The notes under the pieces were generated by a model that saw nothing but the letters and a program-made list of their open reading frames with translations, did not search any database and was not told the origin of the DNA. From positions 806,001 through 870,000 of the forward strand of contig AP026130.1 in assembly GCA_030295235.1 (NCBI GenBank): a stretch of 64,000 bases of DNA, given 5' to 3'. A program made the translations under genes and the position numbers. Positions 2,218-57,176 of the stretch are shown in pieces. This stretch comes from Fistulifera solaris (Eukaryota; Bacillariophyta; Bacillariophyceae; Naviculales; Stauroneidaceae). Within the stretch, counting starts at the first letter, position 1. The number at the start of each line of letters is the position of its first letter.

Positions 2218-5200
2218 CTAGTCGATCAGTAACCATGTGTTTCGCACTTCAACACAAGTCTGTCTTAGAAGCCCGGAAGGATGGTTCATTGCAGCTCCAA
2301 GAATGGATACCACGGGACCTTTGACTTCTTTCACTATACGATGAATTCCCGCTAAATTGGCCACTGTTTGTATCGTTTGAAGAGCAAGTAGCTTGCACGA
2401 CAAAGATCCGAATTCATCCGCTTTAACAAATGCTCGCATCGCACCCACGACAATCTGATATTCCAGTCCGTTGACACTGCTGGATGCGAACGATAGCAGT
2501 TTCACAATCGCAGCGAGCGTCACTTTCATCACGGTCGGTGCATGGGGACCCGATTGATCGATCATGTCAACTGACAGTCCCCGAACGAGAACACGAGCAA
2601 AAACTTGAATTTGTGGGGAAAGGATTGTTCGAAGGTCGGCAAGACATAATAAGTTTCCCACCGCTGCAAGCTCTCCAGCGGCAAGATCAGATGTTTCTTG
2701 GAAGTGAGCGTAGAGGTGTTTCGACGCCAAATGAATGAGCCGTTGCTTCCAAAGTCGCGCGGGCTTATCTGTGTTGAAAATAGAACCAAGTGATGAAGCT
2801 GCTGCTACGCGGATAGTGAGCGCCATGTCCGTGTATGGAATTTTCCTCAGATCAAGTTCGTCGGTGCTTGCTGAAGGAGCGCAAAAATACCATCGCACGC
2901 AACACTCAAAATTAACTGGAGCACTCGGTCCGCCGTCTTGGATGACAAGCCGCCCTTGAGTGCAGCGGCTGATCCAAGGACTCCAAGAAAAGATATACAA
3001 TCGCAAACCTCCGCTGTTAGAACCCTAACGTCCTCTTGTCTCAACTCCGACCCTTCTCGAAATGCGGTGATAAAAGTTTCGATTTTCTTCCCAACTGTTT
3101 CGATTATCAGTGTTTGTATGGGGCAACTTGTTGAATCAGGAGAAAACTTCCAGGCCACGCAATGAAGGCATTGGGCTGCATAGGATCGAGCGTTCGCTGG
3201 ATACTGTTTTGACAAAGCAAATTCTGCTAGGTCAAATCGCATTTCCCATAGTTTAGTTTCCGCGCTGGAGCTTAAACGTAATCCGTCGTGACAAAGAGCG
3301 GAAGATAAGAATACTGTCCCGATCACATTCTTCAAAATTTCTTTGATTTCAGTAGCTTGTATAGTCGATGGATAAGTAGATTGAATCAAGGCTTCCAAGT
3401 GTTCGGCGTCAGCTACACGCTTGTATGCAGTAGCTAAAAATGATGCGATTGGAAGAACCTTGTTCAATCCTGTCTCCAAGTCCTCTGTGCACGCCAAGTC
3501 TTTGCTATAGCAAACGGCGAGCTTATCCAGTAGCTCGACGGCGGTACATCCCGGTGTGTCGAGCTTCTGAAATGCACGAGCACTGAACGAGCCGTTCTCG
3601 AGAAAGATTAAAGAAAGAAGCTTTGCACATTGCTCCACTTCAACAAGCTTCTCTTCGCCGAGAGCATCCATCAGTTTGCCTGCCACACGCTGGACAATAG
3701 ACGCAGCCGAGGACAAACTCGACGTAGTGGCTAGGCCGAGTGCATATTGATCGTTTCTCTCATTAGTCCTTGGCAGACAAGATGATGATACGAGTCGCGA
3801 CAACGCTTCCTTCTTAAAAAATAAAGGTGTCGACATGCTTTGTATAGCTTCCGTGTCACTCAAAGCTTTACCGAGCATTCGTCCGGTTACCTCGGCGCAG
3901 GCCTGAGGGTAGCTCAATGGACCAGCTATCTCTCCATCATCACATACTACTTGAAGGAGAGACTGAAGATAACTATCAATTCGTTCCGAGTGATCTTCAA
4001 GAGAACCGGGCGGCGAATTGACGACAATTGATTCGATTGTGCGTATAGCAGCAATGCGTACTCCAGTCCATGATTCATCCGGTGGAAGCGCGTTAAATAG
4101 CGAAAAGACTTTATCTAGAGCAGTGGCGCTATACGGAGCCAGGGGGTGTGGTACAATAGCTACTCCTTGTCCTTTTGCCTTTTCCAATGCTACTACGGTC
4201 GAAGAAAAGAACGCTCCAACTCCGTACAATGAGCTAGCGACGTCAGCTTCTTCGCTTGGGGCAAAATCCAATTGTTGTAAAAGTAATTCCAAGAAATCTT
4301 CCAGCGTTTGACGAAGGGTTTGAGGCCCTCCGCAAGAACATAGACACGCTGCGTATGCAATGGCAACTCTTTTCTGTGAAGAGGATTCCATTTTCGAGAC
4401 CATTGTCTTTAGGGTGTCTCCCACGAAAGCAGACCAGTGATCACGAGAAACTCGTTCCGCATGAGCAGCGACCCTCGAGATCAAGTCGCGGCAGTGGTCC
4501 GCCAGGATGCGGTTCGTATCTTGCAATTCTTTGCCACCAGCGGCGAGTGACGTCTGATCATGAACGATTACGAGAGCATCGGAAAGATCCCGCAACTGTT
4601 TTGGTGCTAAAAGCCCGATCCGGCTAATATCGCTTCCACTATCAAACAGTATAGACTCGAGGTCTTCTATTCCCTCACGGAGCTCTTTCGTCGTGGGCGG
4701 TCCATCTCCTGGAGGTGGTACGAGTACTTCCAGGACAAGGCCTAGGCTTAATCGAATCATGCTATCCTCTCCGGCTTGGACAAGTGCCTCGTCATAGTCA
4801 AAATTTCGTAGAATAGACAGCAACGCGCCTCGTAGACCTTCCCGCGTAATCCCATGCGTATCGTTTGGCGGTGGTGTGAATTGAATCGGGTAATATGGTG
4901 CCACCACCTCAAAAATTTCGTCGATCGGCATTGTGCTAACAAGTGGACGGAATGCCACAAGCATTGTGCTCAAAACTTGCAGTAATTGCATAAGACAACG
5001 TGGGTCCGATTCGCCTTGCAAGCAGCGGGCAGCGAAAGTGGCAAAGCGCTGCACTTCTTGTTGTGTTGCGGAAGTGAGTTGAGAGGACGATGACTGACGG
5101 TATTGTTCGGCAATTGAGTCAATAGCAGCACTTAAGAGCTGAAAACAGAGTGACCGGCGAGTTCTGGGAAGTACAGATAGACCCGAAATAATGTTTGGTT

Positions 5201-5873
5201 TGTATTGATCCCATTCGTTGTCCTCGGACACAGCACACCGTCGTTGAATTGAATTCAATGTACATTGTAAACGATTTTGCACGAATTCATCAAACGAGTC
5301 CACATTCGGATCCATAGGTAAACGAAAAGAGCATTCAATCCTTCCATTGCCTCGTCACGTATTCGTTCATCGCGATCTTCCTCCGGATCTGGCTCCACCG
5401 GACCGCAGTGCTCTTGATAAAAGTTTCCCAGGAGTCGTGTGGTTGCCAACGACAATGGCATGCGCTGACAGGATTCCAGCGCTCCACGTAAGCACGCCAG
5501 TGCCACCAGGCGCGCACTCAAACTTCCCGAAAAGGCCGGACCTAATTGTTGGATTAGAAGTGCTAGCGACTCTTCGTGAGACGACTTTGTCGATAAACGG
5601 ATACCCTCCTCCGTCACGACGCGCGTTCCTTTCAAAATGGAGCGAAAGAAATTTCTCGATTCTTCACGATGGGCATTCGCACTTGTAGAAGATGCCAAGC
5701 ATGCATCCTTTGAAGTGTATGAGGCGGGGTTTTGAGACAAATTGGAGAATATCTGATGATTCGTAGGAGCTTTCGATTCGAATGCAATTACGTACCTTCC
5801 AAATGCGAAAGAGCTCTTCGGTCGTGCCCGATAGCGCCGTCGACATTTGTGTAGCTTCACTCACGACCGACAT
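2218..5873 (-). CDS. MMS19: MMS19-like cytosolic iron-sulfur assembly targeting factor
   Basis: MMS19 is the HEAT-repeat scaffold of the CIA targeting complex that hands Fe-S clusters to DNA polymerases, helicases and other nuclear and cytosolic enzymes. The diagnostic N-terminal block is YYPIQFTPPPNDTHGIT, close to the family's FTPPPNDPYGI. Before it comes a helical repeat containing LIQQLGPAFSGSLSARLVA. The rest is all-helical HEAT-type sequence ending in a C-terminal repeat domain (EVRNTWLLID). Exon 1 (5796-5873, starting MSVVSEATQ) joins across an 88-nt intron (5708-5795). The body needs two single-base corrections: one base missing at the A4 run 5325-5328 and one near the GG at 2863-2864. 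The joined protein is about 1,190 residues, normal to slightly long for the family. It is transcribed divergently from the sulfotransferase across a repeat array. Confidence 0.85.
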
Positions 5874-6011
5874 GATAATTAGCTATATTTAAGGATGGTT
5901 TGAGCTACGATTGCGAATGAATTTATTTTATTTATTTATCAATCTGCCGCTTCATTGTTGGTGGCAAAAGCAGATGCGCCGCCGCACAATGAAATACGGA
6001 GTAGTGATTGC

Positions 6012-6490
6012 GATCATACAGAAATTCTGTGGTCGTAGCTCCAGAAATTCTGGACCATCTGCAAACATACAAAAATTCTGTGACAGTCGTTCCAGAAATT
6101 CGGGAATGAATGAATCTGAATTACTGGTACGGTACCAGGTACTTGTATGGGGCAAACAGAGATCTTGTGGTCGTTCCAGAAATTCTGGAATCGGTGCTTT
6201 GGGTCATACAGAGATTCTGTGGTCGTTCCAGAAATTCTGGACTCGGTGCTTTGGGTCATACAGAGATTCTGTGGTTATTCCAGAAATTCTGGACTCGGTG
6301 CTTTGGGTCATACAGAGATTCTGTGGTCGTTCCAGAAATTCTGGAATCGGTGCTTTGCGGGTCAAACAGAGATTCTGTCGTCGTTCCAGAAATTCTGGAA
6401 TCGGTTCTTTGGGTCATACAGAGATTCTGTAATTTATTATTTGGGTCAAACAGAGATTCTGTGGTCGTTCCAGAAAATCCCCGGAATTGG
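6012..6490. repeat. 52-bp tandem array of paired palindromes (family 1)
   Basis: The units start at 6156, 6208, 6260, 6312, 6366, 6418 and 6450, so the period is 52 bp with one 54-bp and one shortened unit. Diverged copies precede them from 6018. Each unit carries an ACAGAGATTCTGT-type palindrome, then GGTCGTT, then CCAGAAATTCTGG, then a CGGTGCTTTGGGTCAT spacer. The same palindrome pair in the opposite orientation builds the array near 54.05-54.25 kb, also with a 52-bp period. The flanking copies are degenerate and the central ones nearly identical, which suggests repeated local amplification. Confidence 0.9.
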
Positions 6491-6575
6491 TGTTTGGGTA
6501 AAAACAGCGATTAATCTGTTGAAATGCCTTTCAAAATTTTCATTTCAAAATTAACTACCACCTTTTAAAAGTGTA

Positions 6576-6615
6576 GACGACTTTTGCCACGACTGCATTT
6601 CAGTCAAGAGTCATC
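6576..6615 (-). repeat. Single copy of hairpin element (family 2)
   Basis: The sequence CACGACTGCATTTCAGTCA is present in reverse orientation, preceded by AAAGTGT. This matches the core of the element repeated at 17.96-18.44 kb and 48.63-48.89 kb. The stem is GACTG/CAGTC with a five-base AAATG loop (reverse strand). Confidence 0.7.
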
Positions 6616-6707
6616 GATTTTGCTTCCAACATTATTTTCGCACCCGCAGTCACAACGAGAAGCGACAATGATACAACTAATTTGCACTTTTTATATCATG
6701 AGGAACA

Positions 6708-7838
6708 ATGAAGCGATGCACAGCACGTGAGACCACTTTGTTAGCACTGGGTCTGGGAGTTGTTCTCGTTTCTTTCGCGCAGCTTCATCTGGGTTTGCAA
6801 ACACCTCCGTTTCCTCCCTCGACACTTCTTCATTCGACGTCGCAATCTTACAAAATGAGTTACTCCAGGGCGGAGATTATTCCCCAAAATATTTCTGCTC
6901 ATGGAGGAGGACTTGTACACATAGGAAAGACTGGCGGAAGCACTCTTTCATTACTCTTACGAAACGGCTGTCACTCGTTTATGAGACATCCGTGTTACAA
7001 TATTTCAAACGAATCCCCGGCGAGCCGACTCATTGAAAAATACTATCATGTTCCCGATTTTGGGTTGCTACGAGAATCCCAGCATGATTTTTATGTCATT
7101 ACGGCTCGTGATCCCTTGGATCGAGCGGTTTCGGCCTTTGTCTACGACCATATTCGCAATCGAGACGCACGGAACGAAACCATGGATCCGATGCAACGCG
7201 AGCGCTATGAGGCAGCTTATGTCTGTTTTCCTACATTGGAGGTGTTTGCGGCCTATTTGAAAGGAAATTCGTCGGATTTTCATTATCCGTATCATCGGAA
7301 GGAAGTGCACCCAGAATCCTGCCGCGATTTGGCGCGAGCGGCCTTTCATGGGCATGTTCGAATTTACAGTCACTTGTATTTTAGTTTGGAAAGGATCCGG
7401 TCTTTTATTCCGGGAATAAAGAACCGTGTATTCTTCCTCATTCGCCAAGAAAGACTTTGGGATGACTGGATTCAAACGAATCGTATTTTGCAGGACACGT
7501 ACGGGTTGTCGTCGCAGGATTCCTCGTATGATGTCCCAGTCGAAGCAAGGGAAGACCGTCGCAATTCGACCAACTTGGAAATCAACAATCGACTACCTGT
7601 GGGCAAGACCCTGTCGTCACTTGCAACACAGTCCCTTTGTCGGGCCCTTGAGACGGAGTACACTGTTTTCTTTTGGTTTTTGCTGATTGCAAATAATATT
7701 GACAACGAAGAATTTATGTTCAGTTTGAACAAGGCCAAAGAATCGTGCGGGCGCTATTTGAATATGGATGAAATGATAAGAAAGGAGTCTATAAGCATAC
7801 GAGAAGTCTTCGAACACGGGGTTCGTGTCAGGAAGTAG
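6708..7838 (+). CDS. Membrane-anchored sulfotransferase-family protein
   Basis: This is a predicted type II Golgi-type sulfotransferase that would use PAPS to sulfate glycans. A short cytosolic tail is followed by a hydrophobic anchor at residues about 9-30. The 5'-phosphosulfate-binding loop is HIGKTGGST (residues 71-79). The 3'-phosphate-binding segment is RDPLDRAVSAF (about 134-144), with the conserved Arg and Ser. A basic or aromatic acceptor region and a C-terminal helical part containing CGRYLNMDEM follow. The length of 376 residues is usual for carbohydrate sulfotransferases. The start is the first ATG of the open frame and directly precedes the anchor. The acceptor cannot be named. 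Diatoms make sulfated polysaccharides of the extracellular matrix, which is a plausible but unproven role. Confidence 0.8.
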   Translation: MKRCTARETTLLALGLGVVLVSFAQLHLGLQTPPFPPSTLLHSTSQSYKMSYSRAEIIPQNISAHGGGLVHIGKTGGSTLSLLLRNGCHSFMRHPCYNISNESPASRLIEKYYHVPDFGLLRESQHDFYVITARDPLDRAVSAFVYDHIRNRDARNETMDPMQRERYEAAYVCFPTLEVFAAYLKGNSSDFHYPYHRKEVHPESCRDLARAAFHGHVRIYSHLYFSLERIRSFIPGIKNRVFFLIRQERLWDDWIQTNRILQDTYGLSSQDSSYDVPVEAREDRRNSTNLEINNRLPVGKTLSSLATQSLCRALETEYTVFFWFLLIANNIDNEEFMFSLNKAKESCGRYLNMDEMIRKESISIREVFEHGVRVRK

Positions 7839-17658: not shown

Positions 17659-18606
17659 TTCGTTCGGTCGTAAAATGCCACGTTATAAGTTTCATTTAGC
17701 AAGGAATTAGCATGAGTAAGGACTGTATTCATGTATTGTTTTCGTCCAATTTACTACGAAGAATGCTATAGGTCCGTTAGTTTTTTATCCTTTGCGTCGA
17801 ATGTTTTCCATCTCGTGAATTTTTCGTGGTTGTGCCTGCTACCCATCTCCGCACAACGCACGTGCTTATGGCGTCATCACATACCCAGATTATCTGGGAG
17901 TGTGGTGTTTTCATGTTCCCAGCAATTCTGGGTGAGTGTTTCAACCACGTATTGATTCGTGACTCATGACTGAAATGCAGTCATGGTTTTCTAAAACTAA
18001 CACTTTGGGTCCATAGTAAATACGGAAACAACGCTTCGCAAGTCTTTTCGACGTATAACATAATGACGTGTAATGAAAACGCTGCTAAAGATTATTGCTT
18101 GGCGACAAAAACAAATTGAGCTCAAGATACATTGCTGAACGAACTAGTTGTAGGTAGCATTGACGCTCGAAAGAACATTTTTTTACTGAAGCGCAGTCGT
18201 GGCGAAATACGGACAACACTTTGGTCTATAGTAATACGGAAGACAACGTTTCGCAAGGCTTTTCGACGTGAAATACAATAACATGTAAATTAAACGCTGA
18301 CAAATACTATTGTATTGCAACAACGAGAAATGAAACTCAATTTGAACGAATGAATTGTAGGCAGGATTGACGCTCGAAAGAATACAGATTCATGACTGAA
18401 ATGCAGTCGTGGATAAATGATCTTACACTTTGGAGTATAGTCAATAAATTTTTATTTATTTAGAATCAGACAGAAATTCTGAATTGCTACTCCGTAGTTC
18501 TGCGCGAAGAACAACAACAAAAAAAAAAAAACAATAAGATCTACCGCTTGGTAGGATCTCTAGATATCAGTAACTCGAACGTTGTTGTTTGCATCAATTC
18601 CCTCTG
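17659..18606. other. Divergent intergenic region filled with family 2 repeats
   Basis: No gene is visible between the divergent helical-repeat protein and the hydrolase. The region contains about two and a quarter diverged copies of a roughly 215-bp unit (17961-18441), a single family 1-like palindrome near 18470 (CAGAAATTCTG), and an A-rich run at 18520-18532. Confidence 0.75.
17961..18441 (+). repeat. Tandem ~215-bp units with hairpin plus ACACTTTGG box (family 2)
   Basis: Three hairpin copies start at about 17964, 18186 and 18390. The first is a perfect eight-base-pair stem, CATGACTG-AAATG-CAGTCATG. Each is followed by an ACACTTTGGGTCCATAGTA-like box at about 18000, 18220 and 18425. The first two copies also share a downstream stretch with TTCGCAAG.CTTTTCGACGT and a later GATTGACGCTCGAAAGAA-like stretch that leads into the next hairpin. 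Divergence between copies is substantial, so the duplication is not recent. No coding frame and no terminal inverted repeats of a transposon were recognised. Confidence 0.85.
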
Positions 18607-35299: not shown

Positions 35300-35644
35300 G
35301 CGACGAAAAATGTGCTATACGGATACGGAAACGTGGCAACCGTTTGACTTGACGACGCAGGTGAACTTTCAGATAGCTGTTGCGAAGTGCTTATAGAGAT
35401 AAAGAATCGACTCAAACGAAGAGGATGCCGATCGGAGTTATTTTGTTTTTGTTGTTGCTGTTCAACTTTCGTCGTTTTTCAACTTTTCGATCCGGCGTCA
35501 CGTACGTCACCAAACGTGAATCACCGATCACGATTCAGTGCAATCGGTTTACGAACTAAAGTGACAGCGTAGCAGAATACTTTAGAAAAACAAATCATTT
35601 GTTTACTAAACAAAGAATAAACAAATGATTCATTCATTCATTTA
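35300..35644. other. Intergenic with 3' hairpin of the next gene
   Basis: This stretch lies between the MgtE-type gene start and the Pro/Thr-rich gene stop, both on the minus strand. It contains a long inverted repeat at 35593-35630 and (ATTC)n just downstream of the stop. The remainder must hold the MgtE promoter. Confidence 0.6.
35593..35630 (-). terminator. Perfect 13-bp inverted repeat in the 3' region
   Basis: The arms AATCATTTGTTTA and TAAACAAATGATT are perfect inverse complements with a 12-base A-rich loop. They lie about 15-50 bases past the stop codon of the minus-strand Pro/Thr-rich gene, next to an ATTC tetramer run. They could fold in the 3' UTR, but a role in 3' end formation is only inferred. 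Confidence 0.55.
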
Positions 35645-36793
35645 TTATGCGAGCGATAAATCGTGGTCATAATCATCAAAACCGTCGGTGGACACCAACG
35701 TGTGCGTATGATGCGCCTTACTGCGACTCCCACAACAACACAAACAAGGATAACACAGCATCCGAAAGAAGGCGACCGACCATCGACACAATCGAGCACA
35801 CAATCCGTCGGGATTTTCCACCATTTGTTGCGCGACCAGGATCAAGAGTGTCACGCCCACGACGGCAAAGACCAATGTCGCGATGCGAACGTACGGATCT
35901 TCGACAAACTCTTCGGCCTCTTTCTCCAATGCGTGATTCTTCGAGTCGGATACTTCTTGCGGTGCAGTGGTCGGACTGGCCGTGGCGTGATGCGAAAATG
36001 TATCATCCTTGCCCCACATGTCATACTCGTCGGGTTTCGAGCTGTCTCTACCACCGAAAGTAGGTCGTTCGGTGCGGGGATGTTTTTTCTTTATGGGTGA
36101 TTGCGTGGGACTTTGCGATGGAGACGGAGTTCGGTGTTTTCTTTGTATGGGTGATTGCGTGGGACTGTGTGACGGAGGCGGTGTTTCCAGAACTTGAGTC
36201 ATTGTTGGCGCCGGAGAAGGACGCGGTGTTTCGGCAATCCATGCTTTTGTGGGTCTCAATGTAGGAGCAGCCGTTTCTATCACAATGGATTGTATGGGCG
36301 CCGGTGAGGGAGGAGACGTTTCCAGTACATTTTGTTGTGTCGGGGCTTGGGTCGGTGGAGATGTTTCAGCTACTACAAGTGACTCCGTGGGCGGCGGCGT
36401 GGACTCGAACGTTTCATCAATCCATGACTTCGTGGGTGCCGGTGTGGGAGGCACCGGTGCTTCCACGGGTTCGGGAGTTGGGGGATACTCTTCTATGATC
36501 AAATCATCACCGAAAAAAGAATCATCTTCTTCAACTAAATTGTCGTCTGCGGCGTTGAATTCGTCCTCTTCCAGCCATTTTTCCGGATCATCCTCTTTAT
36601 AAATGGTTTCCGGATCTTCGTCTTCTTCATTCGCGTAAGATAGTTCTTCACTTTCCGGGTCTAACGGTGTATCTAAAACGGGCTGCAATTGCCGTCGATT
36701 GTGACTGATCCGCCTCCGATCGGAATATGCAGAAATGACATTACTCGAAACCAAAGCGATCAGAAATGTTATTAACGCTTGCAATCGCTTCAT
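35645..36793 (-). CDS. Pro/Thr/Ser-rich type I membrane protein of the NPDG-LCRW family (paralogue 2)
   Basis: A signal peptide (ALITFLIALVSSNVISA) starts at the ATG at 36793. The longer open frame upstream is less likely. An acidic region of about 80 residues follows. Next come roughly eight imperfect repeats of about 18-20 residues, of the type TPPPTESLVVAETSPPTQAP, with (S/T)P-rich spacing like diatom cell-wall and mucin-type proteins. A single membrane helix (IATLVFAVVGVTLLILVA) leads into VENPDGLCARLCRW, a Cys-rich juxtamembrane CYPCLCCC stretch and a short acidic tail with YDHD. The membrane-to-tail part parallels the protein at 31983-32812. Surface display and O-glycosylation are likely but unproven. 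The frame is intact, about 382 residues. Confidence 0.7.
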   Translation of the reverse strand: MKRLQALITFLIALVSSNVISAYSDRRRISHNRRQLQPVLDTPLDPESEELSYANEEDEDPETIYKEDDPEKWLEEDEFNAADDNLVEEDDSFFGDDLIIEEYPPTPEPVEAPVPPTPAPTKSWIDETFESTPPPTESLVVAETSPPTQAPTQQNVLETSPPSPAPIQSIVIETAAPTLRPTKAWIAETPRPSPAPTMTQVLETPPPSHSPTQSPIQRKHRTPSPSQSPTQSPIKKKHPRTERPTFGGRDSSKPDEYDMWGKDDTFSHHATASPTTAPQEVSDSKNHALEKEAEEFVEDPYVRIATLVFAVVGVTLLILVAQQMVENPDGLCARLCRWSVAFFRMLCYPCLCCCGSRSKAHHTHTLVSTDGFDDYDHDLSLA

Positions 36794-37785
36794 TGTTATA
36801 TTACTTTGGAGATAGTTAATGGGAAGGAGCACAAGAAAATGATTATATTTGTTGGGTCGACATTTGCATCTGTGATGACTTTGGCCATGGTCGTTTTGGC
36901 AACCGTGTTTTTTTTTTCGTCCGTGGTTTTGGCCGGACGGGAAAAAACTCGAACGACGCGTGCCAGCCTTGTACTGCTAAAGACACAGTATCACAATCAA
37001 TGACTGTGATCATGGAGGTGACGTCATAAATGACAATTAGAACGAATGAGTGCATAGCTCGCATGAGTAAACGTAGCTAGAGTTTTCTGGAGACGGTGTT
37101 TGGGATAATAACGAAAGAAAATGCGCGCTCCAGAAATTTTGTAAACTGTATTTTGGATGATAACGAAAGAAAGTGCACGTTCCAGATATTCTGGATAGGT
37201 TACTTCTGTCACACAGAAATTCTGTGGTGGTCCAGAAATTCTGGACCACTTTTTCCGATCTCACCGAAATGCTGTGCGCGTTCCAAATAATCTAGAGACG
37301 GTGTTTGGGATAATATTGAAAGAAAGTGCACGTTCCAGATATTCTGGAAAAGTGACTTCTGTCATACAGAAATTCTGTTGTGGTCCAGATATTCTGGACC
37401 AGTTTTTCCGTCTTACCGAAATGCTGTGCTCGTTCCAAAAATTCTGGAAACGAGAAAGGACGTTAAAATTTACGCCAAAAACAAGTTCCTGGCATCGGTC
37501 GAATGGCAGAATTTTAACGTCGTTTCCCGTGTTTGGGATAATAGCTACAGAAAGGGCGTGATCCAGAAATTCTGGAAAGGTTTAGTTTATAGTGATGAGA
37601 CATGTATTTCGGAGTATTAGAAAAAATAAGGAATACGCCTTCTCCAAATTTTATTTATTTATTTTTTGCTTGTTTATATCATAAAAAAGCCTCATTTATG
37701 TCAACCGAGTAAATGCTTAGCAACATACTGACTAAAAGGACGCGATCCTAAAGATTCTTGTCATCAGAGCTTTGATTTATCATCT
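36794..37785. other. Intergenic region with family 1 palindromes in ~205-bp units
   Basis: This lies between the Pro/Thr-rich gene start and the EF-Ts stop, both minus strand. The repeat part is listed separately. The remaining 37610-37785 is AT-rich 3' sequence of EF-Ts. No gene is recognised. Confidence 0.7.
37081..37605. repeat. ~205-bp tandem units carrying family 1 palindromes
   Basis: The motif AGACGGTGTTTGGGATAAT occurs at 37091 and 37296, so the period is 205 bp. A partial third copy lies near 37530. Inside each unit are CCAGATATTCTGG, ACAGAAATTCTGT, then TGGTCCAGAAATTCTGGACCA or its variant, the same order of palindromes as in the 52-bp arrays at 6 kb and 54 kb. An additional GTTCCAAA(A/T)ATTCTGGA-like element closes the unit. 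It is non-coding. Confidence 0.88.
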
Positions 37786-38729
37786 TTAGTTCCCAGTAGT
37801 CATCAATTTGAATTGCTTCAATACGACATTGCTATCTTTCAAGAACATCTTGACTTTAGGGTTCGCTTCCTCGATCATATGGGCTTGCTCCAAAAGACAA
37901 AATTGCTCGAAATACTTGTGCAGCCGACCATTCACAATCTTCTCCAAAATCTCGGGCGGCTTGTCCGAGTCACCCATTTGATTGCGCAAGATGTCTTTTT
38001 CTTTGGTAAGCTCGTCCTGGGGAATATCATCACTACTCAAATAGGTGGGACGCGCTGCCACCACATGCATCGCCAAACGCTTGCCAATTTCTTGTAGCTT
38101 TTCCCGCGATACGCTTCCGGGCTGACGGGGTGCGACTTCAACCACCGCCGCCGCGAAACCCGCATCTTTCCCATCGACGCGGTTGTGAACATAGCCAACA
38201 AATATTCCTTCCGCTTCGGTTGCTTCGAATTTGAAGGCCTGTTTGACAGAAATATTTTCTCGAATGGCCACGACCGCTTCGTCCAGCAATCGCTGGACAC
38301 TGTCGGCTTGGAACGATTCTTCATGACCCAGTGTTCCCGAGGCCACTTTGGTCACGAGTTCGACAAACCGAGCGGAAAGGGCCGCAAAATCGGTTTCACA
38401 CGCCACTTGCACCAACGATGCGGATTTTCCATCGGAAGCTACTTGCAGTCCAATCAATCCTTGTGTCGTCTCTCTGCCTTGTACTTTCGAAGTGGCTTTG
38501 GCGGCGCCATGCTCGCGCAACCAATCCAGGGCCGACTGCACGGCGCCGTCGGTACTTTGCAAGGCCTTTTGCATTCCACAATCGGAGCACCCGTTAAAGA
38601 CCGTAACTCTTTCAGTGCTTCCATCGAGAAACCAGCCGAAAAGTTACAGCGCTGTTGAAATCGATGCAGCGATTTCGTTCGCGATGCGCAGCGCAAGAGG
38701 ATGGACGAAAATCGTTGTGTGGTGGACAT
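37786..38729 (-). CDS. TSFM: Elongation factor Ts, organellar (probably mitochondrial)
   Basis: EF-Ts recharges EF-Tu with GTP in bacterial-type translation. The N-terminal UBA-like part is MEALKELRSLTGAPIVECKKALQ, with SALDWLREHGAAKA after it. The core contains VQVACETDFAALSARFVELV, and the C-terminal dimerisation region has GRLHKYFEQFCLLEQ. The leader MSTTQRFSSILLRCASRTKSLHRF is Arg/Ser-rich without acidic residues or a signal peptide, so mitochondria are favoured over plastid. One A/T is missing at 38567-38570; adding it restores the ECKKAL motif. The length is about 314 residues. It is divergent from the MFS gene, with under 200 bp between starts. Confidence 0.93.
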
Positions 38730-38907
38730 TATGTTCTTTGTGTGAAGTTCGACAAAAAGGCAGCAAATATCGAGTTATGCTTGTTGTGGCTTGGTGTTTC
38801 GTAATTGGCTGTTATTGCCTTGTAATAAAAAAGCGAATGAGAGGACGATGCGTGATGACGACGAATGGATTTTTGCGGCTCTCGCTCTCGCGCCTTTGCC
38901 TCTAGGT

Positions 38908-38962
38908 CGTGACTAAACTTCAGTCATGGAAAAGGAATCTACACTATTGAGTTATAGTCTAG
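38908..38962 (+). repeat. Diverged family 2 hairpin element at the MFS gene start
   Basis: GTGACTAAACTTCAGTCATGG is followed by ACACTATTGAGTTATAGT, matching the hairpin-plus-box order of the copies near 18 kb. The stem is degenerate. The predicted ATG of the MFS transporter lies inside it. Confidence 0.55.
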
Positions 38963-41225: not shown

Positions 41226-42986
41226 CTACGCATTATTTTCGGTAGGTGGAGGGTCTGCAGAAGCAAATGGACCCTGAGTTGGCCAGCCATTACCTTCAGA
41301 ATACATATTCTCGAGCTCATTTGCGGGGTCAAAAAGCTGAGCGAAGTCCAAGTCCATATCATCTGCATTTGCACCCGAGTCCATCATACTCCAGTTAATG
41401 CTGTCCAATTCAATAGTCGTCGGAGTCTGTGGAGCGTCCGCAGAAACGAGAGGAGGTGGTGGATGCAATCCTTGCGACAAACGACCGGCCACCGTCGCAC
41501 TTTCTGCCACCATACCCGCCGCAGCTAAAGAGCTCGCCTGACGATCTCTTTCGGAGAGGTCCTCCGGTGGACGATAAAGACCAGGCATCGCCGACAAAGC
41601 CGAAGTGGATCTCGACTGAGGCGCAGAACTTCCCATCAGCATCGACAAACCCGTCGGCGGTGCAATATTAGAACTTCGTTGGCTAGTAGACATTGATCGA
41701 AAATCCGTGTGCAAATCAGCAGGTGGCTCACTTATGGACGCAGGTCTGTCGAAATCGGTTAGAAGTGAAAATAATCGAAGACAATAAATAACAAACTCGG
41801 CACTGACCTTCCAAGTAGCGATGGCATTCTCGTCGGTGCACTTTGAGATAACACTGGGCCATCCAAGGAAAAACTACCGGGACTAGACTCAGGATTCAAA
41901 AGAGGGGATGAGATGGAACCACTTCGCCCCCGCATTTGAGGCGAGGCACCCTTTGCTTTGTTCGCTTCATTTGTAAACATCGATCAGGATGATCGCGATG
42001 AAACAGTTCGTGTCGGTAAGCTCCGGCGTCTTGTCCCTTTGTTATCCTTCGAAATCCATACCTGCAAAATAAGACATGATGTGAGGCCAATAATTTGAAC
42101 CACCAAACAACACATGTCGAAAACAAGTAACTGTTAAATCTTACAGATTGAGCTGCCTCTGAAATGATGTCAGTTTGGTATGTCGAAAGTATCGCTGCAG
42201 AATATCATTCACAAAACGCTCCGGATCGCGAACAACAAAGCCATCACCGCTGGGCAAAAATGCTACCACGCTTTGATCTTCTTTGTTGAGCATGTCCATG
42301 AGCTTACGCGGAAAAGGATTAGAGCCAGAACTACCCAGAGCTGGAGACGAGGTCGCTGAGTGGGTCGGAGAATCTTGGTATGTGCTGGCAGAAGAGGATG
42401 CTCGACGGAGTCTTCGAGTCACCGGAGAATTTTCCACTAAAGAGCCCTCGCTGTTTCTACTTCTCAAAAGAGTCGCATTCGGCAAGACTCCGGTGATCGG
42501 GTTGACAGCAATTACACCAGCAGCACCGCTACCTGCTGGAAGCATAACAGCCCCCTGTGTTGGAACGGAAGTCGCCGCTGGCTGCATTGGTTGCTCAGAC
42601 GGTTTCCCTTCGTCATTATGATTGTTGGCCATTTCAAAATTTTTCCTCAGTGAAGATTGCTGTCTTGCCTTTTCCTGAGCGGCACGAAAGCCCGCCAAGT
42701 ACATAGCTCGTAGTTGCGCCTCTCTATCCGCATCACCCGCTGGAACGGTCCCAGATGTCACTCTCGATTCCGACTGAATGGAAGCGAGTGCGGCATCCAT
42801 GGAATCGCGTAGAGCCGAGAAATCCATCGTGTCATTCGGCGATGACGCTAAATTGTCGTTGTCATCCACAGACTGATCCGAGCTTGACCTTGCTGTTGGG
42901 TCTGGTACAGAAAATTGCCCGGTCACAGGTGTGGTTGCATCATTGTTGCCATTGCTGTAAGTAGTGCTCGTTTGTTGATGATTCAT
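41226..42986 (-). CDS. Heat shock transcription factor (HSF family)
   Basis: The HSF DNA-binding domain lies unusually far into the protein, at about residues 222-320, after a Ser/Asn/Ala-rich N-terminus. It reads [12 protein letters not shown], then [35 protein letters not shown] and [17 protein letters not shown]. The recognition helix [11 protein letters not shown] is intact. Exons are 42145-42986, 42062-41808 (minus strand order) and 41226-41745. Introns are about 83 nt and 62 nt, and their phases fit. One A/T is missing at 41952-41954 just past the domain. No clear leucine-zipper trimerisation region is seen after the domain, and the C-terminus is Ser/Pro-rich then acidic ([20 protein letters not shown]), as in activation domains. 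Diatoms have greatly expanded HSF families, so the target cannot be inferred. Confidence 0.9.
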
Positions 42987-48133: not shown

Positions 48134-49324
48134 ATTGGTTAGTCAGTTCTTAGTAGTGAGACGAAAGACGATGAAAGAATAATCACATGTCTCCGTTTCA
48201 AGCGTCAAAGTGTCGGCGTATCATGGTCGCAATAGAAGTCGCCGACGAACGGTTGCAACTTTCGTGCGGTGACATGTCGCAGTGGGCTCTCAAGCTAGGT
48301 CTATGTAAACGGCCGCCACGATGACAAACAGAAAACACACAACGTAAAAGACGAGACGCGCAGAGCATAGAATGCATACCCAACTCACAATCCTTACTAT
48401 CTCGAGCATCAATACTTCCATTACAGGTTTTTAGGGGTTCCGTATAATCGGACCGCGACTGCAAAAAATATTCCGGCCCAGATTGATACGTAACCCTCGC
48501 TCGTTCTCCCAACCTGATAAGCTAAAAGAATTGTCTTCAACCCAAGTCAACTTCCTTCACCATGCAATACACGCCTCAATAATAATTCATTATGTCGAAA
48601 AGCATAGGATATCGTGACTAAGTTATGCACTATAGACCCAAAGTGTTGTCCGTTTTCACCACGACTGCATTTCAGTCAAGAGTGATGAATCGTTTCCGAG
48701 CCAGACTGCTACCTAATCTTCGTTCGTTCTGCAAGCTTTGTAAAGCTAATTTTGTCTTCATGCCAAGACAAAGCATTCGCTAAGACCGTATCGATCCGTG
48801 ACGTCGAATGTGTTGGGGATCGCTGACTTCCGTATCTACTATATACCCAAAGTGTTGTCCGTTTCTCACCACGACTGCATTTCAGTCATGAATCAAGGCT
48901 ACGTATAATAACCTTCACTCGTTCTCCTTATTTGCAAACACATTATACATTTGTCTGTACCAGATATCACAAATAGACTTACTTCAACAACAAAAGCATA
49001 ACCCCTCTTGTGTCATGATGTCGAAAAAGGCTTGGGTTTGGGTTGTGAATTATTTTTGTAAAGCAGCAAATATCGCAGTGAGAGCCATGTACACTGACGT
49101 AGAAAGTGTTGTCATTATTTTTACGCGGCGCTGACAATAAAAGAAAAACAAACACGAACGCGGAAAACAGAAAGGTCGAAACATTCAATACAATGTAAAT
49201 AGCCTTCATTATAAAATAACCAGCAGTTGCCATTCTACAGGAGGAATAACATAAGAATCGAGGGCTATACGTCTCAGCTACAAATTTCAGTTCAATTGGA
49301 AAGCTTCCGCACCATCAGACGACC
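48134..49324. other. Divergent intergenic region with two family 2 copies
   Basis: This is a 1.2-kb spacer between TRAPPC10 (minus) and the PEX22-like gene (plus). Two reverse-oriented family 2 elements lie at 48629-48892. The rest is unremarkable AT-rich sequence without a gene. Confidence 0.6.
48629..48892 (-). repeat. Two tandem family 2 hairpin elements, ~210-bp period
   Basis: CTATAGACCCAAAGTGTTG at about 48630 and CTATATACCCAAAGTGTTG at about 48839 each precede GTCCGTTT and CACCACGACTGCATTTCAGTCA. This is the reverse complement of the hairpin-box element near 18 kb. The spacing of about 210 bp is close to the ~215-bp unit there. The sequence between the two copies is diverged. Confidence 0.85.
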
Positions 49325-50113: not shown

Positions 50114-50354
50114 AGTAGCTGGAGATTGGGAATAAACTCGTTTTAATGCTAAGTTAACCATAAAATACCGTTACAGCAATCGCTCATGTGACTCGCAGGG
50201 TTACATCAATCTCAACTTTCACTATCGCTTCCAGCACGAAGAGAAGCGCAGCTTGCTGCCTAAAGCTATAAACTATTAAAGCTCATTAATCTCTCAAAGT
50301 ATGATTAAATGCCATGCCGTTCGTCAAAGATCAGAAAAGTGGTAGCTAATAGAG

Positions 50355-51155
50355 TTACTCCTCTTTCGGCTCCGTTTGTTCTTCCGAAGTGGAAAGTCCA
50401 GCTAATGCTGCAGCGGCTTCATCGGCAACACCTTCCGCATCCTCAGCGTCTTTTCCTCCCAACAATTTCTCCATTTCACTCTGGCACTCGAGAAATTTGT
50501 CGCGAAACTCATTGGCTATGTCCGAGTCGCCAAAACGAATCGCGAAAATGGTTTCCTTGAGTTCTCCTTCCGCAAAATCAAAGGCCGACCAAACCCAAGA
50601 TCGATCACTGCCCACATTGGGCTCCAATTTGATTTTGGGGTCTACTACATGGTTGGCAATCACCTTCATTGTCTTTTCTTGACGCATCAACAATCGGATT
50701 TTTTGATGCTCCCGATGTTTCAACAATCGCACTTCACCAATGCCTCGTTCGCGCCACGTCTTGTTGCCCGTACCTTGGTCAAGCAAAGTTTCGCCGTAAA
50801 TGAAGAGCTTGGAACGCTTCGTATAAAGTACTTCCTGCAATGTTTGTCAGAGCGAATGTGAAGGATGAGTCGAGCGACGCTTCGAAATTAACTCCATATC
50901 ACAACAAAAATAAGCTTACCTCCTCTTCTTCACCAGATTTGACTTCTACTTCCTCGAGCTTTACCTGAAATCAATCACAAAATATACGGAACAGTGTTTG
51001 AGAAAAGGAATTCATTATTGAATAGCATGGACGGGGAAACCACTCACCACCGGCTCGAACGTTGCGGTACTCTCTTCCTCCTTGGCGGGGACATCATCAC
51101 CTTCTTCCTCTTCTCCTTCCGCAGGAACTGTCTTTGGTTCGTCTTCTGCACTCAT
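50355..51155 (-). CDS. RANBP1: RanBP1-like Ran-binding protein
   Basis: This is a cytosolic co-factor that helps release RanGTP from export complexes. Three exons are predicted: 51048-51155 (MSAEDEPKTVPAEGEEEE and on), 50920-50964 (VKLEEVEVKSGEEEE) and 50355-50834. Introns are 50965-51047 and 50835-50919, all with good GT-AG sites and whole codons. The Ran-binding domain has EVLYTKRSKLFIYGE, WRERGIGEVRLLKHRE, KIRLLMRQEKTMKVIANH, WVWSAFDFAEGELKETIFAIRF and FRDKFLEC. The protein is 210 residues with acidic termini, the normal size. No frameshift was found. It is divergent from the USP-like gene across a minisatellite. Confidence 0.95.
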
Positions 51156-51838
51156 GATTGTTGTATTGGTTGTTGATATTGTCGTTGACAAAAAGGGTTA
51201 TATCCACAGCGATGATGGGCGGGCCGCCTTCCTTGTTTATGTGGCTCATCGTGATCGGCGCCGTCGATACCTATTATTAGCGCATTTTCGCTGGACGTGA
51301 AAAATCTACGAAAACGTTCGTACGGCGTATGCGTGTCAGGTCATGCCTGTAGGGAATCCGGAATTTTGAAGAATTGTTTTTCTATTTCAATAGAAAAACT
51401 CACGTCTCGGCACGTGCACAGAAAAAAGTGGGGGTGTGCTTTTTTGACGTGTCCAGAGAATGTGGGAATTGGGAATGTGCTTTTTTCACGTGTCCAGAGA
51501 ATGTGGGAATGTGCTTTTTCATGTGTCCAGAGAATGAGGGAATGTGCTTTTTTCACTTGTCCAGAGAATGTGGGAATGTGCTTTTTCATGTGTCCAGAAA
51601 ATGTGGGAGTGTGCTTTTTCACGTGTCCAGAAAATGTGGGGGTGTGGGTTTTCACGTGTCCAGAAAATGTGGGGATGTGTTTTTCACTTGTCCAGAAAAT
51701 GTGGGGATGTGCTTTTTCACGTGTCCAGAAAATGTGGGCGTGTGCGGCTTCGTCCGCAGACTGTAATCTGTGATCTTTCAAAAAATCGAAGAGCTTATTA
51801 CTCGGAGCAGTACTATTATACTAACATACAATGGTACC
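51156..51838. other. Divergent intergenic region with 33-bp minisatellite
   Basis: This is the region between RanBP1 and the USP-like gene. Its main content is the 33-bp array. Long open frames on both strands here exist because the unit length is a multiple of three and lacks stops. Confidence 0.75.
51434..51750. repeat. 33-bp minisatellite with CACGTG core
   Basis: Units begin at 51487, 51520, 51554, 51587, 51620, 51653, 51685 and 51718, a 32-34-bp period, with a diverged copy before them. The consensus is CA(C/T)(G/T)TGTCCAGA, then (A/G)AATGTGGG, then a variable pair, then TGTGCTTTTT. Several units contain a perfect CACGTG, the core site of many bHLH and bZIP factors. The array ends about 90 bp before the USP-like ATG. 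Confidence 0.9.
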
Positions 51839-53132: not shown

Positions 53133-53913
53133 TCATTCTTTCTGTGCAAGCTCGACAGGTAGTATTCCGGCACCCGTAATCTTCACGGCCGCGGATGGTC
53201 GTCCCGATGAACTTCCACAATCTTCAATTTTCTTGACGACATCCCATCCTTCTTGCAAGCTACCAAACACGACATGACGTCCATCTAAATGCGGAGTACG
53301 TGCCGTGGTGATGAAGAATTGTGTCGTGTTGGTGTTGCGACCCGCGTTGGCCATGGACAATACGCCCGGTCCTACGTGTTCCAGGATAAAGTTCTCGTCA
53401 TCGAACCTCATGCTGCTCGAAGTGGGCACAATTTGTCCACCTTGGATCATGAATCCCTTGTAATTGCGTATCAGATGTTACTCAAAATGCAAATAAGGAT
53501 GACATCCATACAATTAGTTTAAAACTTACCGGAATAATCCGATGAAATTGAGTTCCGGCATAACCTTGATGACAATATTTTTGAAAATTAGCCACTGTTT
53601 TGGGAACAAGATCACCATAGAGTCCGAGAACAATGCGTCCCGCCGGCTGGTTGTCAATCGATACATCGAAATACGCTTGCGACGTGACTTGTGCGAGTGG
53701 GGCCACCGGTCCCGCATTCGTTTCCTCATACCGCCACGATTTATCATTCAAATAATTCGCTACTACAGCAAATGTGGTGCCGACTGTCGCAAAGGTGGCG
53801 AACTTCCACAGCAACGAGCTTGTTTTCGGGTTGCTCGACGAAAACGATCGTGCGGTGGTCGCGCCGAAGGACGGGCTCATTCGTAAGTAAATTGCTCGTT
53901 GCGTCCTTATCAT
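53133..53913 (-). CDS. Cyclophilin-type peptidyl-prolyl isomerase with membrane anchor
   Basis: Exon 1 (53530-53913) encodes a Ser/Arg-rich leader (MIRTQRAIYLRMSPSFG), a hydrophobic anchor (LWKFATFATVGTTFAVVANY) and the start of the domain: AYFDVSIDNQPAGRIVLGLYGDLVPKTVANF, here shown only in part, and GTQFHRIIP. The intron is 53457-53529. Exon 2 (53133-53456) supplies GFMIQGGQIV, GVLSMANAGRNTNTTQFFI and PHLDGRHVVFGSLQEG. The catalytic Arg in FHRIIP and the Phe and His positions of the active site are present. In many cyclophilins a Trp lies after FGS-type strands; here it is in EGWDVVKK. A mitochondrial inner-membrane location is suggested by the leader. The protein has 235 residues. Confidence 0.92.
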
Positions 53914-54527
53914 TTTACCGTCGAGTACCAGTACTTTGTCTTTACACAAGAAAGGCTATGGACTGTTTGATCTTGTTGACAATAATCACCGCGTGATACT
54001 ACGATGATCGAGGTCTCCGTAAAATTTTCTGGAATGAAATACAACTGGTCCAGAATTTCTGGACCACCCCAGAATTTCTGTATCAATGAAATGCAACTGG
54101 TCCAGAATTTCTGGACCACCCCAGAATTTCTGTATCAATGAAATGCAACTGGTCCAGAATTTCTGGACCACCCCAGAATTTCTGTATCAATGAAATACAA
54201 CTGGTCCAGAATTTCTGGACCAGCCCAAAATTTCTGTATCAATGAAATGCAACTAAAACACACCGTATTCAGATTTTCTGGAAATTACACAGAATTTCTT
54301 TATAGCCACATGGAGTGAACGGATTATGAGGAGTCTCGGAAGGATGAAAAGCTCATTACCTAAAGGCATTCTCCTCCACCGAAGTCAAAAATTGTTTTTT
54401 CTTTTCTTTTTTGCGCCAAACGAGAAAACATCGGATTGCCATCTTCTCTTCCAGGAATGAAACAGAGAAAACAAAAGACAGTGAAATAGTTGAGTCTCAA
54501 AAGAAGAAAGAAAGGAGTGAAACAGCC
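53914..54527. other. Divergent intergenic region with 52-bp array
   Basis: This spacer between the cyclophilin and TSR1 genes is dominated by the family 1 array at 54040-54300. No gene is seen in it. Confidence 0.75.
54040..54305. repeat. 52-bp tandem array of paired palindromes (family 1), nearly identical units
   Basis: The palindrome CCAGAATTTCTGG starts at 54050, 54102, 54154 and 54206, an exact 52-bp period. Each unit reads GGTCCAGAATTTCTGGACC, then ACCC, then CAGAATTTCTGTATCA, then ATGAAATGCAACT. Copies differ by very few bases, so this array looks young or homogenised. A degenerate unit with CAGATTTTCTGG and ACAGAATTTCTTT follows to about 54302. Confidence 0.92.
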
Positions 54528-57176
54528 ATGCCGGGACATCATCACCGCGCGGGCGGTTTGCGTCAGAGCAACAAAAAGAACAAACGGACCAAAGCTTCCA
54601 AACGCAGCGTCGCTCGTGCGGCCGGAGGAAAAGTCATGGGCAGGACGAGTGCTTTGCATGGTATTGCGCAACAAAGCAAAGCCGATCGACGCAATCATCT
54701 GCAACAACGACGAGATGCCAAGCGCACCGAGCTTTTGCGCAAACGTCGGGGAGTCGATGGTCAACCGGCTCCTCCCCGGGTCGTCGGTATCATTGCCTTG
54801 GGAAAAGAACCATCGGTGATTGAGGAACGAGTCCGCGATGTGTTGATCAAAGATGCGGACAAAATTGTTCGACCGCATTATGCGGAACAAGCCACCGTGT
54901 CGTGTCGATATGAAGTGCACAAGAAGCAGGGAAATTTGACGGTTCTGACGTGTGGAACGGCGTTTGCACATTACGGCGAAGGTGATAACGCTGCGGTCTT
55001 AGCTGCTCTCGACTTGGCGCGAGTTTGTGATTTGATGGTTTTTGTCTTGGATGGGAATGCTACGAAGCTGGAGACTGACATTTCAGAGATTCATATTGGA
55101 AGTAGTCACATGGATACTTCTTCCCAAAAGGGATCGTCTGTTGCGGCAAACGAATGGGATCATTTGATTAGCGAACGTGGTGACCGTATTTTGACAGCAC
55201 TGAAAGCTCAGGGACTTCCATCGTTACTTACTCTGTTACTGAACACGGAGATTGCCTTGGACGATGCCATGACAATGCAAAGCACAAAAAGTCTACGTAG
55301 ACTCAAAGTCAAACGAAATCTTGAACTCAAAGATATGCCAGTCGCTTTGCAACGACCGAATTTGGAACCGGAAATGACAAAGTCATCGAGATTGACTTGG
55401 ATCAGAAGAGCAAGGACGAAATGATGGACGAAGATGTCGAGACGTTTTCTGTGACGGACAAAATAAAAACGCAGTCCATCGCTAACTTTGTTCGCGCGGT
55501 ATGTTCCATGTCCGCCTCACCGTCCAAGTGGGTCGAAGCATCTCCACGGCCCTATGTGCTCTCCGATTCTTACAAATACGACCATGCCACCAAGGAGCTC
55601 CACCTGACTGGATTCGTTCGTGGACCGATTCCATTGAATGTAAATGCCTTGTTCCACATTCCTGGAGTTGGAACACATCTGTGCAAAATTATAAAAGAAG
55701 ATGCGGCGCCGTTATCGCGGAGGAAAGAGACTAGTAAACCTACCATAGAGTCTGATCCAGATTTACAGGAAAGTCTTGATATGTTTGCTTCTCCCGACGC
55801 TTTGGAAGGTGAACAGAATCTTATTGGTTTCGATGAGGAGGAAGAAGATATGGAAAATGAGACTGATGGTGACCGATTTGCTCGACCTGCTGGTTGGTCG
55901 GATTACCAATCTGCTTGGTTAGACGCCGTGGACGAAGACGCTGCTAGTGAGCACGAAGATAATGGCGAGCTAGCGGACGAGTTAAATGCCAAGTTTAATG
56001 AATCATCGAAGCAAGCGGACATGGATTTAGAAGATTCAAATATTATTTCACCAGAAGAACGACACATGCTGCACGAACAGCGTAGAAAAGAAAACACGGA
56101 GCATCAGGAATTCCCGGATGAGGTTCAAGTTGACGAAAATGTGAACGCTCGAGACCGCTTTGCCAGATACCGATCCTTGAAAATTTTCCGCAAATCACCT
56201 TGGGATCCGAAGGAGAATCTTCCTGATGATTACGCTTCAATTTTTCACATATCAAATTTCAAAACAACGCAGCGCTCAGTCATGAACTACATGAAAGACG
56301 TTGCCAAGGAAGCCGATTTTACCGAATCGAAATTTTGGGGATCCTCTTTGAAAGATTCACAAATGACCGATGATGAAAGCGAAGACGATGATCTTCTGCA
56401 AGGCCATGTACCGAGCGGTTCTTACATTACTTTGACCATGGACAATGTCGAGCCAGACGCTTTTGAGAACGTTTCCTCGGGTTCGCTGCTAGTAGCAGTA
56501 GGTCTTTTGGAACACGAAAATAAGGTGTCAGTATTGCATATGGGACTAACGAAGAATGCCGAAGTTGAGGGCCCAGAAAATCTTCCAATAAAGAGCAAAG
56601 ATACGCTCATTATTCGTTGTGGTTGGAGGACCTGGAAAGCTCGGCCAATTTTCAGTCAGCACAACTTGAATTGTGACAAGCACAAGTTTGAGCGCTATGC
56701 TCCTCCGGCCGGAGCTTTCTTTGCCGCCAGTGTGTTCGGCCCTGTTACTTATTCACCTTGTCCTGTGCTAGTTTTTCGCGAAGACAACTTTGACGAGGTG
56801 TCTCCGGATGCTGCCAGACAACAACTCGTCGCCTCGGGAAGTGTGATCGGCGCCGATGCCGAGCGCATTGTTGTAAAACGAGTCATTCTGACCGGTTACC
56901 CCGTGAGAGTCCACAAGCGCTTCGCTACCGTCAAATACATGTTCTACAACCCAGAAGACGTGAAGTGGTTCAAACCGGCCTCGTTGTACACCAAACATGG
57001 TCTTCAGGGAAATATTTTAGAAAGCGTTGGTGACCACGGGACAATGAAATGTCTATTCAATGCACCTATTAAGCAGCACGACACCGTGTGCTTGCCTCTT
57101 TAAAAGAGTATTCCCTAAGTTTGCGGAGTGCGACGCTGCAAAGAGTCATGGAGCCCCTGTGCTAAAGATTTGGTAA
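54528..57176 (+). CDS. TSR1: TSR1 pre-rRNA processing GTPase-like factor
   Basis: TSR1 is a late 40S maturation factor related to BMS1 that has lost nucleotide binding. The basic N-terminus (MPGHHHRAGGLRQSNKKNKR) is typical. The GTPase-like region RVVGIIALGKEPS lacks a P-loop Lys-Ser/Thr, and CDLMVFVLDG follows. The C-terminal half contains RFARYRSLKIFRKSPWDP, and FAASVFGPVTYSPCPVLVF and GYPVRVHKRFATVKYMFYNPEDV. Two corrections are needed. One A is missing at 55372-55374, which joins the halves as PENDKVIEIDLDQ. One extra T lies at 57099-57101, without which the end reads LPLKRVFPKF and stops at 57174-57176, matching the family's KRVFPKW ending. Otherwise the frame stops at 57103. The protein is about 880 residues. 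Confidence 0.92.

Follow-up and report, generated by a model that had tools for sequence, protein, structure and literature searches.

The 64,000-nt stretch of Fistulifera solaris DNA analysed here, referred to as the window in the following, contains three arrays (A, B and C) of paired palindromic sites next to predicted gene starts, i.e., the observation made in the initial annotation is confirmed. The arrays combine two site types, GT (aCAGAnATTCTGt, ACAG..CTGT) and GG (tcCAGAnATTCTGga, CCAG..CTGG), in a common oriented order: a GT site is followed, mostly after 19-20 bp, by a GG site and the latter, mostly after 30-34 bp, by the next GT site, with 52 bp as the commonest period. Besides this shared layout and the placement at predicted gene starts, the sites are enriched and their palindromes are more alike between loci than the spacers. 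From these sequence features, we infer selection, protein binding, a dimer and an effect on transcription; the identity of the binder as an HSF is a guess. The reading we favour, with chances about even, is that the arrays are promoter minisatellites by which the dyad sites of a dimeric transcription factor have been multiplied.

Layout of the arrays

The arrays and a lone copy of the shared 11-bp core are located as follows.

5991..6500, + strand (opposite to array C): array A, period 52 bp, nine GT-type and eight GG-type slots, degenerate ones included
37070..37590, + strand: array B, GG and GT slots alternating every 19-20 and 30-32 bp
54018..54306, - strand: array C, a 52-bp unit in four near-identical copies (54033-54254) with diverged copies on the flanks
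54290, 54270, 54226, 54207, 54174, 54155, 54122, 54103, 54070 and 54051, - strand: cores of array C
54021: degenerate core of array C (3 mismatches)
18471..18481, + strand: lone exact core (agaCAGAAATTCTGaat / CAGAAATTCTG) between divergent gene starts

At 54 kb, the initial annotation had described paired palindromes in fixed order forming a 52-bp tandem array. Tandem Repeats Finder (TRF) and motif reading agree with this description, the former reporting for 54033-54254 a period of 52 bp with 4.3 copies and 97% matches. The unit of array C consists of CCAGAATTTCTGG, 6 bp and CCAGAATTTCTGT, the latter with one change in copy four; that is, the pair stands, and its gap has to be corrected from about 7 to 6 bp. 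The proposed array of the same pair in opposite orientation at 6.0-6.5 kb is likewise found with the same 52-bp period (TRF, 6148-6430: 5.4 copies, 92% matches). Within this array A, the pair spacing is 23 bp in pairs 1-2 and 20 bp in the following six. The units of ~205 bp suggested for 37.1-37.6 kb are not what we find: array B shows a 153-bp higher-order unit of three times ~51 bp, and TRF reports a 50-bp period, too (64% matches). The palindrome noted near 18.47 kb is indeed alone, while the label 'degenerate' does not apply, given its exact 11-bp core at 18471.

To summarize the spacings, degenerate slots were counted (37163 and 37316, two highly degenerate GT slots of array B whose position was set by the lattice, as well as 6471, 37284 and 54021 with three mismatches each) and the sites 6116, 37400 and 37564 were omitted, such that the following regularity partly reflects slot choice: the GT to GG spacing is 19 or 20 bp in 17 of 19 adjacent pairs (the remaining two, with 23 bp, are the first pairs of array A), and the GG to GT spacing is 30-34 bp in 14 of 17 cases (outliers 28, 44 and 64 bp). 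Neighbours of like type occur as well, i.e., GT-GT at 32 bp in array A and GG-GG at 30 bp in array C. With a unit profile made from 20 units, we obtain 22 matches at E < 0.01 (A nine, B eight, C five), 20 of them by construction; the other two (37094 and 37530) lengthen array B. At the lone core, the profile match (18463-18481) reaches an E-value of 0.11 only.

Strict helical phasing of the sites was considered and rejected. The phasing is approximate only, with the 19-, 23- and 28-bp spacings and the 153-bp unit being off phase by ~70 degrees or more.

Enrichment and occurrence elsewhere

We compared the counts of the 11-bp core CAGAAWTTCTG with those in 20 first-order Markov sequences. Exact cores occur 19 times in the window (mean 0.0 in the Markov sequences) and cores with one mismatch 17 times (mean 1.9). 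With two mismatches, 26 sites are near the Markov mean of 23.7, so the excess is confined to the 0- and 1-mismatch classes. Nearly all sites from these two classes, i.e., 34 of 36, are within the arrays (A 15, B 9, C 10); the two others are located at 18471 (exact) and 17920 (one mismatch). Pairs of exact cores (CAGANATTCTG) with starts 17-35 bp apart are found 8 times in the window and never in 100 dinucleotide shuffles.

The same pair pattern matches 4 stretches in IMG/VR and 37 stretches among prokaryote contigs (257 Gb). None of these 41 stretches shows the alternation of 19-20 with 30-34 bp between exact cores, where the 4 viral stretches were inspected around the match and the 37 prokaryote stretches were checked by script for their first six spacings. 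Judged by eye, one of the IMG/VR stretches resembles a phage operator, another is a short repeat, and the remaining two are repetitive and look coding. Searching IMG/VR for the 21-bp palindrome and for the unit of GT, short spacer and GG yielded no match for either.

The phage operator-like site (IMG/VR contig L001:1701-1744) resembles the arrays in that it contains two CAGAATTTCTG/CAGAATTTCTGcat palindromes 33 bp apart. They sit just past a helix-turn-helix-like gene (named by eye), and the pair is perhaps a repressor operator. Unlike the arrays, the site belongs to a viral contig and is without the lattice; its likeness to the arrays is probably due to chance or convergence.

Among the prokaryote matches, two contigs of the Clostridia MAG E09__bin156 (L026 and L033) contain three exact cores each, three and two of which are of the GG type, one core pair 29 bp apart, as well as six and seven one-mismatch copies, respectively. 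They may represent a bacterial operator or repeat that is dispersed.

With regard to the literature, the titles and abstract starts of the matches listed for the palindrome strings include none on this question, and those for the half-site and spacing strings include none of relevance apart from one fungal HSF paper. Among the matches listed for palindromic or tandem-repeat promoter motifs of diatoms in open-licence literature, titles and abstract starts give no description of the element. The kind of feature is already known; its motif and layout were not met in the sequence collections and literature searched.

Conservation and symmetry

Between loci, we compared all 20 units (A nine, B six, C five). 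Given that slots were located by motif match, which builds part of the contrast between palindromes and spacers into the comparison, the identities for A-B, A-C and B-C are 0.82, 0.87 and 0.87 for the GG slot, 0.72, 0.83 and 0.72 for the GT slot, 0.59, 0.51 and 0.59 for the short spacer, and 0.55, 0.57 and 0.55 for the long spacer. When the long spacers are shuffled 60 times, the respective means are 0.48, 0.51 and 0.48 and the maxima 0.51, 0.56 and 0.54. That is, the long-spacer likeness exceeds every one of the shuffles in all three locus pairs, by little, which makes a common ancestor of the arrays likely.

An earlier run was restricted to chosen units (5/9 of A, 5/6 of B and 4/5 of C). Omitted were, for A and C, mainly degenerate units and those at the edges and, for B, a single unit. 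This run resulted in GG identities of 0.89, 1.00 and 0.89 and long-spacer identities of 0.58, 0.54 and 0.62, of which the A-C value was not above its shuffles. The contrast between palindromes and spacers thus shrinks from the chosen to the full set of units but persists. Copies inside array B are as diverged as copies from different loci (GG 0.87, long spacer 0.55).

Altogether, the arrays look like old relatives in which the spacers appear near-randomised and the palindromes, GG above all, less changed. As expected for promoter minisatellites, the motif, in slots placed by its own match, is conserved over the spacer between loci. This supports the idea from the initial annotation that the palindromes are the constrained part (GG slot 0.82-0.87 vs. 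long spacer 0.55-0.57 with motif-placed slots). Its related statement that palindromes are conserved while spacers differ holds for the conservation; the spacers are not wholly unrelated, being above their 60 shuffles.

We also assessed the symmetry of the sites. The outer dyad pair -2/+2 of GG co-varies (T-A in 6/22 and G-C in 6/22 sites), with 55% complementary pairs vs. 34% expected for independent sides. Symmetry beyond the column composition is smaller at -3 to -5 and absent in the GG core; for GT sites, one core pair is complementary in 0.85 of the cases vs. 0.72 expected. Several palindrome copies are broken on one side, and the left-right asymmetry of the GG site is largely due to degenerate copies.

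Perfect odd palindromes with arms of at least 6 occur 33 times in the window compared to 18.2 +/- 3.7 (maximum 27) in 30 simulated sequences; for even palindromes, the respective values are 21 and 17.0. Five odd palindromes have arms of at least 9 (10 or 11 in each case), namely one in array B and four in array C. The longest one of array B is given below; each of the four main units of array C contains its inner 21 bp, read on the opposite strand.

37227..37249, no strand assigned: perfect odd palindrome of 23 bp, GTGGTCCAGAAATTCTGGACCAC

When folding the single strands of one unit per array, the structures are better than those of shuffles (z of -3.75, -2.33 and -6.25), which is to be expected for palindromes.

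Two overlapping odd palindromes of 17 bp each, AAACAAATCATTTGTTT and TTTGTTTACTAAACAAA, are located at 35588-35614.

Neighbouring genes and further repeats

The window has 46.5% G+C, is about two thirds coding according to a simple codon model, and contains eukaryotic genes. Those next to the arrays are the following.

2847..5873, - strand: MMS19-like gene, 5' start 5873 set by eye
6708..7838, + strand: gene of a 376-aa protein without Pfam match, sulfotransferase-like by eye only
35645..36793, - strand: gene of a 382-aa protein (no Pfam match) that starts ~0.3-0.8 kb from array B
37786-38574, - strand: EF-Ts gene
53528..53880, - strand: cyclophilin-like gene, first coding exon, named by eye from its translation
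54528..57103, + strand: Tsr1-type 40S ribosome biogenesis gene in two reading frames (PF04950, E 2.8e-92; PF08142, E 1.9e-07)

Array C is located between the divergent starts of the cyclophilin-like gene (-, start 53880) and the Tsr1-type gene (+, start 54528), for which a PF22298 match is below its cut-off and whose C-terminal part matches nothing among plasmids. Array A is flanked by the divergent MMS19-like gene (-) and the gene of the 376-aa protein (+, start 6708), while array B is upstream of the 382-aa protein gene and downstream of EF-Ts, which among PDB chains matches only bacterial and mitochondrial-type ones. Overall, array sites are ~0.14-0.8 kb away from predicted gene starts and no array is flanked by convergent genes, although three arrays are too few for a test. 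As in promoter minisatellites, tandem units are thus found upstream of gene starts, the latter being predictions. The intergenic placement is weak evidence since a repeat of 50-52 bp would disrupt coding sequence. The neighbours (MMS19-like, cyclophilin-like, Tsr1 and unknowns) suggest no common pathway.

Further repeats are present in the window. The second intergenic family (17960-18450 and 48490-48930, with fragments at 6568-6614 and 38907-38959) has units of ~210 bp with the inverted repeat GACTGAAATGCAGTC or relatives, and one of its fragments adjoins array A. The third family (51435-51745) is a 33-bp array, for which TRF reports 9.1 copies. It contains CACGTG as well as TCCAGAAAATGTGGG and separates the gene at 51839, upstream of which it lies, from a divergent RanBP1-like gene (by eye; 50350-51155, -). 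A relative of the third family at 17877-17941 contains CCCAGATTATCTGGG, a perfect odd palindrome, at a distance of 34 bp from CCCAGCAATTCTGGG, and is close to the array motif CAGAAWTTCTG.

HSF as a candidate binder

Heat shock elements cluster in promoters. Like them, the arrays consist of inverted AGAA/TTCT units, and the dimer TTCNNGAA is present in array A (11), B (3) and C (2). Unlike them, the arrays show GAA-1-TTC instead of the 2-bp spacing and are without the canonical trimer, and the main units of array C have GTC/GAC in place of the outer TTC/GAA. Neither TTCNNGAANNTTC nor GAANNTTCNNGAA nor GAANNTTC, i.e., canonical heat shock elements, occur in the three arrays, and in no array did we find at least three alternating nGAAnnTTCnnGAAn units at 2-bp gaps. 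GAANTTC is found 8, 4 and 8 times in A, B and C, respectively, such that the arrays hold 20 of the 43 occurrences in the window. By appearance, rather than by their binder, the sites correspond to non-canonical HSF dimer sites, i.e., two inverted GAA/TTC units with an altered gap.

The window itself encodes an HSF-type protein, the sequence of which looks diatom-like.

42141-42986, - strand: HSF-type DNA-binding protein gene (PF00447, E 2.1e-14), with an intron apparently interrupting the domain

In P. tricornutum, HSFs are reported as the largest family of transcription factors, with 67 of the 196 (34%) predicted ones (PMC4827209). The section on motifs in PMC11267843 gives GAATTC, TTCNGAA and TTCGAATTC, plus TTCTAGAA, as bound by HSFs of P. 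infestans and names neither GAA-1-TTC nor an array. These targets resemble the sites studied here in being GAA/TTC dimers with non-canonical spacing that are HSF-bound in a stramenopile; they differ in that the arrays carry GAA-N-TTC with CA/TG extensions and belong to another lineage (PMC11267843). DNA-binding data for diatom HSFs were absent from the titles and abstract starts among the matches listed in the literature search.

Given the GAA-N-TTC core, the HSF gene in the window, the large HSF family of diatoms and the odd-spaced oomycete targets, an HSF is a plausible candidate, nothing more. That the binding factor is a member of this family, reading the two AGAA half-sites of AGAA-N-TTCT, is our foremost suggestion, though one we would rather bet against.

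Alternative explanations

The initial annotation jointly offered three readings, namely binding sites of a dimeric factor, a non-autonomous element, and an amplification-prone hairpin. Judged by its fit to the sequence, the first appears best, while a transposon finds little support. The hairpin idea is in line with the better-than-shuffled folding of the unit strands, which is, on the other hand, what palindromes would show anyway. In its neutral form, i.e., a dispersed minisatellite whose 52-bp unit spread intergenically and was amplified via replication hairpins without regulatory role, we consider it rather unlikely. Besides the folding, it could account for the slight long-spacer likeness between loci, for irregular spacings (30, 32, 44, 63, 64 and 84 bp) that look like core-core exchange, and for the presence of two further intergenic repeat families in the window. 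It fits less well that palindromes are less diverged than spacers, part of which is explained by slot choice, and that GG core changes come without a matching change on the other arm, contrary to hairpin selection. The same core changes mostly break pairs and thus also argue against transcribed arrays whose palindromes act as RNA hairpins, be it as small-RNA source or as UTR structure. Folded with DNA parameters, the units do yield stems that are 4 to 10 pairs long and have 3-base loops. Comparing the window with Rfam gave no match above a family threshold, and we regard such an RNA role as very improbable.

More observations bear on whether the arrays belong to a non-autonomous element, be it a DNA transposon or Helitron-like, whose transposase would bind the palindromes; we deem this improbable. 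Three dispersed copies in both orientations with residual spacer likeness would be compatible with it, and so would the 12-mer AACAATGAAGCG, which has the following exact copies.

5948-5959, - strand: AACAATGAAGCG, ~30 bp left of array A
6704-6715, + strand: AACAATGAAGCG, ~200 bp right of array A
36786-36797, - strand: AACAATGAAGCG, beside array B

The 12-mer thus surrounds array A in inverted orientation and recurs next to array B. With at most one mismatch, four matches are found in the window (including a one-mismatch copy at 24325) vs. 0.59 expected, and none of 100 shuffles reaches four. Furthermore, at least 12 bp are shared in 3 of 12 inter-array comparisons of 300-bp flanks vs. 28 of 1500 random intergenic pairs; one of these matches (15 bp) is of low complexity and the other two (12 and 14 bp) are around AACAATGAAGCG. 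However, only 6-13 of 30 bases match on either side beyond the 12-mer, and two of its three exact copies span predicted start codons, i.e., 6704-6715 that of 6708 and 36786-36797 that of 36793. Up to two mismatches, there is no second copy near array B and none at array C. Local alignments between loci stop at the array ends, and no repeats of at least 12 bp are found inside any of the six flank stretches. When relating left to right 150-bp flanks, direct matches do not exceed 7 bp, without any target-site duplication being found, and inverted ones reach at most 10, 9 and 6 bp; these lengths are within the range of 200 shuffles assessed for direct matches only (mean ~7; maxima 12, 10 and 11). 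For the non-autonomous element, the shared 12-mer above chance is a favourable point, while similarity ending at the arrays and flanks free of repeats speak against it. Gene paralogy beside arrays A and B was rejected as a source of AACAATGAAGCG, as the encoded proteins are unrelated.

Proposed mechanism and implications

According to the reading as promoter minisatellites, the arrays would be promoter-proximal homotypic clusters of dyad binding sites that were amplified as ~52-bp minisatellites. Each unit would carry two related sites, ACAGA-N-ATTCTGT and (G/T)TCCAGA-N-ATTCTGGA(C/A), and each palindrome would be occupied by a sequence-specific factor acting as a dimer, of which there may be one or two related kinds. 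Several dimers side by side near gene starts could then set the transcription of the adjoining gene or divergent gene pair. Unequal exchange between near-identical cores may shift the array length, with cores presumably held by selection while spacers drift. A weakness of this reading is that three loci from one window provide few independent samples, since copies within an array share ancestry. It also leaves the 12-mer beside arrays A and B unexplained.

Tandem repeats have been reviewed as facilitators of regulatory evolution (PMC3899988). Like the regulatory repeats described there, the arrays could alter the expression of nearby genes by copy number; unlike those in the part of the review considered here, each array unit holds two dyads common to several loci. 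A further likeness exists to the diatom iron-response palindrome ACACGTGC, which is found ~200 bp upstream of diatom genes and for which a dimeric factor was proposed (PMC3491386). Its sequence is unrelated to the array sites, and its description in the respective section of PMC3491386 includes no array.

A more far-reaching idea is a lineage-specific promoter code, in which an expanded HSF subfamily would read the odd-length GAA-N-TTC dyad. Oriented pairs ~two and three helical turns apart would then be part of ~5-turn minisatellites at many promoters, with the array length tuning the output. We consider this a long shot.

An enriched dyad with a common layout provides a ready bait for its binder as well as a ready reporter test. 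Should the arrays turn out to have a function and to differ in length, they would make it possible to study, in a simple system, the tuning of expression by the number of promoter repeats in algae.
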